Program-made: the position numbers and the translations under genes | Shown: positions 24,063 to 26,796 of the stretch, piece by piece | How positions within the stretch are numbered: position 1 is the stretch's first letter | Layout of the letters: each line of letters starts with the position of its first letter | Assembly: GCA_027491165.1 (NCBI GenBank) | Contig: JAIXWS010000075.1 | Coordinates: 1-49,065 of the forward strand | DNA: 49,065 bases | From: Sphingobacteriales bacterium | GTDB lineage: Bacteria > Bacteroidota > Bacteroidia > Chitinophagales > Chitinophagaceae | Reading direction: 5' to 3' | The notes under the pieces: generated by a model | Told to the model about the DNA's origin: nothing | Seen by the model: the letters and a program-made list of their open reading frames with translations, nothing else | Database searches by the model: none

Positions 24063-24902
24063 GTGAATAAAGCGCCCATCATATCCGTAATTGTTGCCCT
24101 GCTATTGGTTGCAGGTATTTATTTTGGAGGCAATACCACCCCACCGAAGCCCAAAGAGCGCTCTGAAAAAGCATCGGGCGCCTCCATGAATGAATCGATT
24201 AAAAGCATTGATGTTGACTCACTTATAGTAGCTTCTAAAAAAAGTTTAGCACAACATGCACTTGGCGAGCTACAAGCGGTGGATGTACAAATGCGCAAGG
24301 TGACCGACTCGGCACAATTAGCACCATTATTTAGCCAATATGCCCAAATATGGCAAGAGCATAAGCAGTTTCCACTAGCCGCTTATTTTTATTCTTTGGC
24401 TGCAAAATTGGAAAACTCAGAAAAAAAGCTCACCTTCGCCGCCCAATTGTTTTTAGACCTCGCCAGAAAAGAACCTACTGCGGAATTGCAAAATTGGGAA
24501 GCAAGCAATGCTATTAACGCTTTCAAACAAATTTTGATATTGAATCCTTCAAACGATTCGGCAAAATTATCCCTCGCAGAATGTTATTTTGGTACGGGCG
24601 AAGCAATGAAAGGAGTAGTGCTGGTAAAAGAAATTACGGCTAAAGAGCCCGAAAATAAATCAGCGAATTTATTGCTAGGGCAACAAGGATTAATATCCCA
24701 ACAGTACGACAAAGCAAAACAACGTTTTGAAACCGTACTGAAAAATGAACCTAAAAATGTAGAAGCCATGCTGGGACTGGCAGAAGCTTTGAAAGGATTA
24801 GGTGAAATTGAAAAAGCAAAACAGCTTTTAGAAGAATGTAAAAAACTAATCGATAATCCTGCTTTTGCAAAAGATATCGAAGAATATATTAAAACTTTTT
24901 AA
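24063..24902 (+). CDS. Tetratricopeptide-repeat protein with N-terminal membrane anchor
   Basis: 279 residues from a GTG start. One hydrophobic segment (about 5-22, IISVIVALLLVAGIYFGG) would anchor it with the bulk outside the cytoplasm, or act as an uncleaved signal. Helical TPR-like repeats occupy about 95-275, clearest in NPSNDSAKLSLAECYFGTGE and NEPKNVEAMLGLAEALKGLGE. TPRs mediate protein-protein contacts; no enzyme domain is present. The gene is followed 23 bp later by the small ribosomal-type protein and then RNase G. The specific role is unknown. Confidence 0.85.
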   Translation: MNKAPIISVIVALLLVAGIYFGGNTTPPKPKERSEKASGASMNESIKSIDVDSLIVASKKSLAQHALGELQAVDVQMRKVTDSAQLAPLFSQYAQIWQEHKQFPLAAYFYSLAAKLENSEKKLTFAAQLFLDLARKEPTAELQNWEASNAINAFKQILILNPSNDSAKLSLAECYFGTGEAMKGVVLVKEITAKEPENKSANLLLGQQGLISQQYDKAKQRFETVLKNEPKNVEAMLGLAEALKGLGEIEKAKQLLEECKKLIDNPAFAKDIEEYIKTF

Positions 24903-24925
24903 TAACAAATTAAATCATTCAGATT

Positions 24926-25015
24926 ATGCCTTGTGGTAAGAAAAGAAAACGTCATAAAATTGCAACCCATAAACGCAAAAAACGTTTAAGAAAAAACCGT
25001 CATAAGAAAAAATAA
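24926..25015 (+). CDS. 29-residue AURKAIP1/COX24 (mS38/bS22-like) small ribosomal protein
   Basis: A tiny, strongly basic frame: it begins MPCGKKRKRH, continues KIATHKRKKRLRKN and ends RHKKK, with 18 Lys/Arg among 29 residues. The KKRKRHKIATHKRKKRLRKNRHK pattern is that of the bacterial members of the AURKAIP1/COX24 family, related to mitochondrial mS38 and actinobacterial bS22, which bind the decoding region of the small ribosomal subunit. Family assignment is from recognition of the conserved pattern. It lies 23 bp after the TPR gene and is probably cotranscribed with it. Confidence 0.85.
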   Translation: MPCGKKRKRHKIATHKRKKRLRKNRHKKK

Positions 25016-25099
25016 ATAGGGTTTATTAAAACTCTTTTTCGATAGAAGGCTTTTTATCAGGCTTTTTACTCAATATTTTGTTTCAACACAATGACAGTC

Positions 25100-25150
25100 C
25101 CTTACATAGTGTATATCTCCCAAAATTTGGAGGATGTGCACCATGTAAGG
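25100..25150 (+). ncRNA. Long imperfect hairpin in the leader of RNase G
   Basis: 8-bp stem (25100-25107 with 25143-25150), one mismatch, 3 bp (25109-25111 with 25139-25141), then a lower-quality helix including G-U pairs and one bulge (25112-25120 with 25129-25138), closing on an AT-rich 8-nt loop. About 20 pairs in 51 nt. No T-run follows, so it is not a normal terminator. It lies 92 bp upstream of the RNase G start and may be a leader structure. Transcription is inferred. Confidence 0.55.
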
Positions 25151-25242
25151 TTACTCATTTGTAGGTATCTCAACCAAGCATTCCAATAGCAAATTTACTG
25201 AGCGAAAAGAGTATTCATTCTTTTTAAAAAACGACGGTAGCA

Positions 25243-26796
25243 ATGAATAAAGAACTTATTATCAATGCTTCAGGCGATGTAGTAGAAATTGCATTGCTGG
25301 AAGATAAGAAATTGGTAGAGCTACACTACGAACAAGGTCAGGACGATTTTGCGGTTGGAGATTTATTTCTGGGAAAAATTAAAAAATTAATGCCCGGGCT
25401 TAACGCTGCATTTGTGGACGTGGGTTACGAAAAAGACGCCTTCCTTCATTATACCGACCTCAGCCCTCACTTTAATTCGTTAGTCAAATTCTCCAAACAA
25501 TCAATTGAGGGAAACCGAAGCTGGGGAGATGATTTTACCAAATTCAAATTAGAACCTGTTATTCAAAAAGCAGGAAAAATTACAGAGGTTATTAACCAAA
25601 AACCGGAAGTAATTGTTCAAATTCTGAAAGAACCCATCTCGGCCAAAGGCCCTAGATTGAGTTGCGAAATATCTTTACCCGGTAGGTTTTTGGTGCTGAC
25701 ACCATTCAACGACATGGTATCGGTATCCCGCAAAATACACTCTGCAGAAGAGCGTAAAAGATTACAAAAAATTGTTGAGGCCGTTAAGCCCAAGAATTTC
25801 GGTATGATTGTACGTACTGCTGCCGAAGGCAAAGGAACTGAAGAGCTCCATGCCGATGTTTTTGAATTGGTAAAAATGTGGGAAACCATCCAAACCAATC
25901 TTAAAGGTGCCAAAGCACCCCAAAAAATATTAGGCGAGCAAACCAAAACCACCTCTATTCTGCGCGATTTGCTCAACGAAAGTTTTCAACGGGTAGTCTC
26001 TAACGACAAGCGTATTGCTGACGATGCAAGAGAATACATTACCCGGGTTGCGCCAGAAAAAGCAGAAATTGTTTCTTTTCACAGCGGAGGTGTAAATATT
26101 TTTGAACAATATGGTGTAAGCAAACAAGTTAAATCTTCCTTTGGCCAAACCATCAGCATGGGTAGTGGTTCTTACCTCATTATCCAGCATACCGAAGCCC
26201 TGCATGTTATTGATGTAAATAGCGGTACGCGTAGCGCAGATGCAGGACAAGAACAAAATGCCTTAGCAACCAACCTAGAAGCGGTAGCAGAAATAGCCCG
26301 CCAAATGCGCCTACGCGACCTTGGCGGTATTGTGATTGTCGATTTTATCGACATGAAACTACCCGATAACAAGAAGCAGGTCTTGGATGCTATGGAATTG
26401 GCCATGACGCCCGATAGAGCCCGACATACCATTTTACCGATTTCCAAATTTGGTTTGATGCAAATCACTCGTCAGCGCCTCCGCCCCGAACTCAACATCA
26501 ATACCTCTGAAGAATGCCCAACTTGTAAAGGCACGGGTAAAATTGGTCCATCCATTCTTTTATCAGACAATATTGAGCGAGACCTCAGCTATTTAGTAGA
26601 TCAAGGACATAGAGAATTGCTGCTCAAAGCACATCCTATAGTGGCAGCTTACCTTACGAAGGGGATTTTATTTACTTCACTACGCTCTAAATGGGGCCGT
26701 AAATACAAAACAAAATTGGCTGTTGTAGCCGATAACAGCTACCCCATTACCCAATACCGATATTTCGATACCAACAACGATAGTATCAATCTCTAA
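25243..26796 (+). CDS. rng: Ribonuclease G/E family endoribonuclease
   Basis: 517 residues, RNase G size (no RNase E scaffold tail). An N-terminal S1 domain (about 35-130, with LFLGKIKKLMPGLNAAFVDVGYEKDAFLH) precedes the RNase H-like catalytic core with its two Mg-binding Asp residues in ALHVIDVNSGTRS and VIVDFIDMK. The Zn-link CPTCKGTGK is followed by the small domain. It cleaves single-stranded AU-rich RNA in mRNA decay and rRNA maturation. The ATG is at 25243. A long hairpin in its presumed leader suggests possible autoregulation, as known for enterobacterial rne. It ends in a terminator. Confidence 0.96.
   Translation: MNKELIINASGDVVEIALLEDKKLVELHYEQGQDDFAVGDLFLGKIKKLMPGLNAAFVDVGYEKDAFLHYTDLSPHFNSLVKFSKQSIEGNRSWGDDFTKFKLEPVIQKAGKITEVINQKPEVIVQILKEPISAKGPRLSCEISLPGRFLVLTPFNDMVSVSRKIHSAEERKRLQKIVEAVKPKNFGMIVRTAAEGKGTEELHADVFELVKMWETIQTNLKGAKAPQKILGEQTKTTSILRDLLNESFQRVVSNDKRIADDAREYITRVAPEKAEIVSFHSGGVNIFEQYGVSKQVKSSFGQTISMGSGSYLIIQHTEALHVIDVNSGTRSADAGQEQNALATNLEAVAEIARQMRLRDLGGIVIVDFIDMKLPDNKKQVLDAMELAMTPDRARHTILPISKFGLMQITRQRLRPELNINTSEECPTCKGTGKIGPSILLSDNIERDLSYLVDQGHRELLLKAHPIVAAYLTKGILFTSLRSKWGRKYKTKLAVVADNSYPITQYRYFDTNNDSINL

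Follow-up and report, generated by a model that had tools for sequence, protein, structure and literature searches.

Enzymes of the RNase E/G family set the lifetimes of messages in many bacteria, and the control of their own amount is best known in Proteobacteria. The DNA analyzed here, a 49,065-nt stretch from a Sphingobacteriales bacterium assigned to Chitinophagaceae (contig JAIXWS010000075.1; hereafter the window), carries a long hairpin ahead of rng, an RNase E/G family gene, and thus raises the question of whether a structured leader RNA sets the level of such an enzyme in Bacteroidota. The hairpin before rng is real and present as a single copy. Comparisons show that its structure is maintained as RNA and linked to the gap between rng and a small ribosomal protein gene of the bS22 type, and it probably helps to set the amount of RNase G made. 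A covarying leader tied to rng would provide a concrete, testable control point in Bacteroidota.

The hairpin and the genes around it

The features of the locus are all located on the same strand (Table 1). The best solved relatives of the 29-aa protein encoded directly upstream of the gap are chain 5 of PDB 7jil, named S22 / L38 by its depositors, and bS22 of 8fmw; 7jil is the Flavobacterium johnsoniae ribosome. A bS22 of F. johnsoniae is mentioned in PMC10618245, and this name is used here for the 29-aa protein. The TPR protein gene is a possible first gene of a bS22–rng operon. The genome is 97.67% complete, and no gene in it other than rng matches PF10150. The active-site, 5'-sensor and Zn-link residues of the rng product, taken from the set given in PMC9841416, align with those of E. 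coli RNase E. An RNase III gene is also present in the genome. In 109 of the 113 rng loci read in the family and genus, a small basic ORF is located directly 5' of rng; one of the four loci in which none was found (L031) ends at a contig edge within the gene.

Table 1. Features of the bS22–rng region in window coordinates.
Feature	Position	Strand	Remarks
TPR protein gene	24063..24902	+	23 bases 5' of bS22 gene, same strand
Small basic ribosomal protein gene, bS22 type, 29 aa	24926..25015	+	structure matches E 9.1e-10, 1.6e-7
Terminator-like short stem	25018..25039	+	7 pairs (one G-U), loop ATTA, then TTTT; directly after bS22 stop; by eye
Weak outer helix, 5' strand AATGA	25090..25094	+	fold of 25090-25160 only
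Conserved hairpin	25100..25150	+	22 pairs in window; covariation in relatives tested on basal 14 pairs
Weak outer helix, 3' strand TCATT	25155..25159	+	fold of 25090-25160; includes kept AUU 25157-25159
rng, RNase E/G family, 517 aa	25243..26796	+	PF10150 E 2e-95; TIGR00757 above cut-off

A first-pass annotation of this DNA, made from the sequence by a model, described a 51-nt, imperfect hairpin of roughly 20 pairs about 90 bp ahead of rng and without a T-run, and this description was borne out in each respect. The hairpin contains 22 pairs in runs of 8, 10 and 4, split by two 1x1 mismatches and closed by a 3-nt loop, and its folding energy is -26.8 kcal/mol compared with a shuffle mean of -8.5 (z -7.72; 0 of 200 shuffles as stable). 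The distance from its end to the rng ATG (25243) is 92 nt. The absence of a T-run holds for the window because the longest T-run in the ten bases 3' of the stem is 3 and because a scan of 24850-25350 found no intrinsic terminator. The terminator-like stem directly after the bS22 stop codon was missed by the stricter terminator rules of both the window scan and the leader scan and was seen by eye only; stems clearly like it were seen, likewise by eye, in three of the six genus members (L009, L015, L017). The order of the gap in the window is a ribosomal protein gene directly 5' and a ribonuclease gene directly 3' of the hairpin.

The first-pass annotation also considered that the sequence might be a repeat with many copies in the genome. 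A genome search with a 151-base hairpin query found the query itself only (next best E 0.52), and a covariance model matched the hairpin place only, on both strands (next best E 1.95). A dispersed, REP-like repeat is thus ruled out by both searches, and no phage relative was found.

Conservation of the fold and its place

By DNA and protein searches, the hairpin region was found in all six genus genomes, and rng in 141 of the 147 genomes from the family. The genus sample was unselected, and the hairpin is located at the equivalent place in all six members. In total, 113 leaders were read: those of 110 of the 141 family genomes with rng, and three more of the genus. The first 27 consisted of the 24 best family matches (L015-L038; rng identity at least 69%) and three from the genus (L009, L012, L014). 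A gap hairpin was recognized by eye in 21 of these 27, and the remaining six (L027, L029, L030, L031, L036 and L037), also judged by eye, had no hairpin or something else in its place. Nineteen of the 21 were aligned; L034 and L035 were kept out, as their stem letters are unrelated. These two leaders come from a single genus (g18); the stem in the gap has 27 pairs in L034 and 25 in L035, closed by a 4-nt loop.

Several lines of comparative evidence point to maintenance of the fold itself. In the 19-sequence alignment, which was built without the use of structure, 94.3% of cells at 12 pairs are paired, compared with 79.7% in shuffles and 32-55% in slid controls; RNAalifold predicts 14 pairs for the same sequences, 13 of which are changed on both sides. 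The set was enlarged to 40 sequences: the 19 chosen by eye from rng leaders, 12 found via the covariance model and nine from the named loci L161-L170, whose anchors were chosen by hand. L168 and L032 are one contig, so L168 was dropped; L171 and L172 were also dropped, as no such hairpin was seen on reading. In this set, where choice by eye or by a structure model favors structure and the shuffled and slid controls leave that bias in, 91.2% of 557 cells are paired, compared with 73.0% in shuffles and 39-58% for slid partners. Changes on both sides occur in all 14 basal pairs (101 such cells vs. 30.5 in shuffles), and 0 of 500 shuffles reach any of five measures. A second MAFFT setting gave 509 of 556 cells paired. 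The first-pass annotation had allowed that the structure might lack conservation; these figures indicate the opposite.

A phylogeny-aware null of our own construction (150 simulated alignments; 3321 column pairs) was more demanding. In the unrestricted test, only one of the 3321 column pairs passes E 0.05, and this is a stem pair; the top 10 include seven stem pairs and three non-stem pairs. When the E-values are scaled by hand to the 14 stem pairs (x 14/3321), 8 of 14 fall below 0.05. Because paired positions change together, selection seems to act on the fold itself in the window's bacterium and its near relatives.

The pairing statistics also bear on which molecule is folded. G-U combinations outnumber A-C combinations 62 to 13 in the stem cells, as expected from the rng strand folded as RNA and not from selection on DNA or on the other strand; the hairpin thus acts as RNA of the rng strand. 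In agreement with this, when covariance model R1 was run on 394 family genomes, 30 were matched at E 0.01, the best match was located in the bS22–rng gap in 29 of the 30, and 28 of those 29 were on the rng strand; the opposite strand scored best at L155. Twelve of the 29 gap-matching genomes are outside the R1 training set, and two training genomes (G002 and G005) were missed by the R1 filters in the family search. A DNA-level feature (operator, inverted repeat) or a mobile repeat is an alternative, since inverted repeats can be of both kinds. Against it stand the single copy, the G-U excess and the predominance of the rng strand; on these comparisons this alternative appears largely refuted and has become scarcely credible.

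On the evidence of these searches, the matches cluster in a Chitinophagaceae group close to the window's genus, one of them being named Flavipsychrobacter (L168). In 298 order genomes, R1 gave seven matches: five known gap sites, G106 and G554, the last from another family (E 4.2e-4). Among 47 of the 80 named loci, the leader matches at E ≤ 0.05 were L157-L160 and L168, which are on training-set contigs, and L165. The match in G106 (L148, G106:C3:29745-29827; E 2.2e-6) is the sole family best match outside the bS22–rng gap; neither gene was found in the 3 kb locus. One of the named loci, L160 (JASGCQ010000025.1), is titled Phycisphaerales bacterium MAG05; its rng is 91% identical to that of the window and its contig has the length and range of a genus member (G005, L016), so that the record is probably mislabeled or mixed.

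The element can be divided into parts that differ in what is conserved. The basal stem of about 14 pairs keeps its letters in part (consensus CCUUACAUC / GAUGUARGG), and the distal stem has variable letters and is still folded (mean z -2.1 vs. mononucleotide shuffles; 28 of 37 below -1). An internal loop rich in U, a short outer helix and an AUU that is mostly unpaired complete the element. Stem length is 10-25 pairs with a median of 19, reaching at least 15 in 38 of 40 sequences and remaining below 20 in 23 of 40; the shortest, in L020, has only 10 pairs. The AUU 3' of the stem (25157-25159; alignment columns 95-97) is kept as A in 33, T in 38 and T in 37 of the 40 sequences, with a predicted probability of being unpaired of 0.62-0.67. 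The 3' flank has the consensus UUUUGYYAUU; since the window has UUACUCAUU there, YAUU is the only part kept. From the bS22 stop codon to the start of the stem there are 34-84 nt (84 in the window), and from the end of the stem to the rng start codon 58-117 nt. That letters are conserved at the stem base and in the 3' flank points to sequence-specific reading, something that RNase III alone would not need.

Candidate roles in a proposed bS22–rng message

The closest known arrangement to the bS22–hairpin–rng order is rpsO-pnp. In E. coli and Streptomyces, a stem-loop likewise lies between a ribosomal protein gene and a ribonuclease gene; there it follows a terminator (PMC5872136), and this intergenic stem-loop is described as an RNase III processing site (PMC5872136, PMC8708148). 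The present case differs in the genes, bS22 and rng, and in the phylum, Bacteroidota, and here cutting by RNase III is suggested by analogy. In addition, the E. coli rpsO-pnp gap has a promoter, whereas none was detected in the bS22–rng gap.

Start-codon occlusion and an internal promoter were considered and rejected. Over 40 leaders, the 15 nt directly 5' of the start codon are predicted to be as open with the hairpin as without it (mean change 0.005, sd 0.032, n=40), so simple occlusion of the start codon is unlikely. With regard to a transcription start downstream of 25150, which the first-pass annotation had named as a possible objection, a scan of the 40 leaders for Bacteroidota-type promoter sites (TTTG/TAnnTTTG) gave no more of them than expected, either upstream (3/40, 3.6 expected) or downstream of the hairpin (4/40, 7.5 expected), arguing against an internal promoter in the gap. 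The open start region, the lack of promoter excess and the lack of a terminator found by the window scan together favor an element of a joint bS22–rng message.

The reading that we tentatively prefer, with close to an even chance of being correct, is that the hairpin is a cis-acting element in the bS22–rng mRNA that controls the amount of RNase G via endonucleolytic processing or decay of the rng part. The two genes would be co-transcribed, partly past the weak terminator-like stem, and RNase III would then most likely cut the long stem, as it does in rpsO-pnp, or the message would be cut beside the stem at the single-stranded YAUU flank. Such a cut would part the ribosomal protein message from the rng message, thereby setting the lifetime of the latter, and RNase G might act on the cut leader as a feedback step. 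The stem of 10-25 pairs and the RNase III gene in the genome are only compatible with RNase III cutting of the stem. Against the processing reading stand the shorter stems (10 pairs in L020, below 20 in 23 of 40), the conserved letters of the stem base and 3' flank, the U-rich 3' flank outside the genus, the single column pair that passes the unrestricted phylogenetic test with three non-stem pairs in its top 10, and the six early leaders in which no such hairpin was recognized by eye.

RNase G itself could instead be the controlling enzyme, as the first-pass annotation supposed with reference to rne. RNase G would bind the hairpin and cut the A/U-rich flank or nearby message, so that rng mRNA falls when the enzyme is in excess, like RNase E with the rne 5' UTR stem-loop. 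In favor of this idea are the tie of the element to the rng leader (29 of 30 matched family genomes) and the kept, mostly unpaired AUU; self-feedback of E. coli rne, pnp and rnc is described in PMC3997798, and structured leaders of other ribonuclease genes, rne-II and Actino-pnp, appear in a table of PMC2864571. The groove residues, by alignment, provide mixed evidence. Of the RNase E groove residues named in PMC9841416, six could be read off the alignment. Three count as retained or basic: Y269, Q22 (here K) and K433 (here R, in a part that aligns weakly). The other three depart from RNase E, with E for R3, Q for H268 and G for Q270, and the same paper describes E. coli RNase G as being without the groove residues. 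In addition, no Rfam rne family matches the hairpin region. RNase G control of the rng leader is a hypothesis, and autoregulation in this direct form is fairly unlikely in our estimate; RNase III processing is at least as likely.

The hairpin might also end or protect the bS22 message and affect rng only indirectly. This is a serious rival, given that 28 of the 34 stems outside the genus have a U-rich tail (at least 6 T in ten bases, with a T-run of at least 4 in 20 of 34). Another terminator-like stem is present upstream in only 10 of 42 leaders under the rule used. In the other leader groups of the family (see below), a terminator-like stem lies within 70 nt of the bS22 stop codon in 12/26, 7/12 and 8/11 leaders, so a terminator after bS22 would be normal. 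However, the terminator rule picks out only 7 of 42 hairpins (L034 and L035 among them) and 0 of 6 in the window's genus, where the fold is kept without a U-run, and letters for which a terminator has no need are conserved at the stem base and in the AUU past the U-tract. These features speak against the hairpin being a transcription terminator or a 3'-end stabilizer, and we consider that role unlikely.

Ribosomal protein operons are often self-regulated, and most of the regulatory sites are located upstream of, or within, the first gene. bS22 could accordingly bind the hairpin as a site between genes and repress its own operon, for which the regular presence of a gene of the bS22 kind directly 5' of rng could be taken as a sign; however, the hairpin is located downstream of the bS22 gene, and this proposal seems to us very improbable.

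RNase G trims 16S rRNA in E. coli (PMC3985665), and the position of the hairpin between a ribosomal protein gene and the gene of such an enzyme is a hint that ribosome production and RNA processing may be connected.

Known ribonuclease leaders and other rng leaders of the family

No Rfam family matches the window at the gathering score. A search of 24900-25300 to E 10 gave 12 matches, all below the gathering score and none of an rne or pnp family; the best match was to mir-1540 (E 0.0042; 25.2 of 90 bits) and lay on the opposite strand. A known Rfam family is thus rejected as the identity of the hairpin. The rne 5' UTR stem-loops are likewise conserved leader hairpins of an RNase E/G family gene. 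The bS22–rng hairpin differs from the rne leaders of Rfam (rne-II and rne5) in being located in an intercistronic gap and in matching no rne family. The Actino-pnp leader (RF01688; PMC2864571) is likewise a conserved structured leader of a ribonuclease gene, of another gene and phylum, and gives no match here. In E. coli, as proposed here, the level of RNase G is set by RNase III acting on rng mRNA; there, however, the sites are in the coding region rather than in a hairpin of the leader (PMC3985665, PMC6872547). The literature searched, which included few subscription papers and bioRxiv preprints, gave no account of a structured rng leader in Bacteroidota. A structured leader of a ribonuclease gene is therefore of a known kind, and the bS22–rng hairpin family is new as far as searched.

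A single structure for all leaders of the family can be rejected, as three further groups, B, C and D, look different; when these were quickly aligned, their folds received little statistical support. Group B (26 of 113 leaders; e.g., L113, L117 and L118) has an AACUUU string, often GCAACUUUACCUUUCC, upstream, complementary to (A)AAGUUGC just before the start codon. The two strings could pair, judging from their complementarity, and thereby close the start region; they define the group and are invariant, which leaves no covariation to test. Candidate pairings in the same gap are UACAGC/GCUGUA beside the start in group C (12 of 113; e.g., L095), and GCUGAA/UUCAGC and UUAUUUGUCA/UGACAACUAA in group D (11 of 113; e.g., L058).

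A broader and rather doubtful proposal is that the sole RNase E/G enzyme of this Bacteroidota lineage is feedback-controlled via a dedicated bS22–rng leader RNA conserved in sequence and structure, and that other genera swapped unrelated structured leaders into the same gap. Structural control of rng would then be older than any one structure.

The region next to the rng start codon has features of its own. GACGGTAGC is located at 25233-25241 in the window, just 5' of the start codon; at the same place in relatives, 21 of the 40 hairpin leaders carry GACGG within the last 16 nt, and several others carry a near variant of it. No pairing partner for GACGGTAGC or GACGG before the rng start was identified. 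In the 113 family loci, with starts placed from the protein alignment, each of the 21 hairpin leaders included has an ATG start codon, group B has GTG (24/26) or TTG (2/26), and group D has TTG in 11 of 11.
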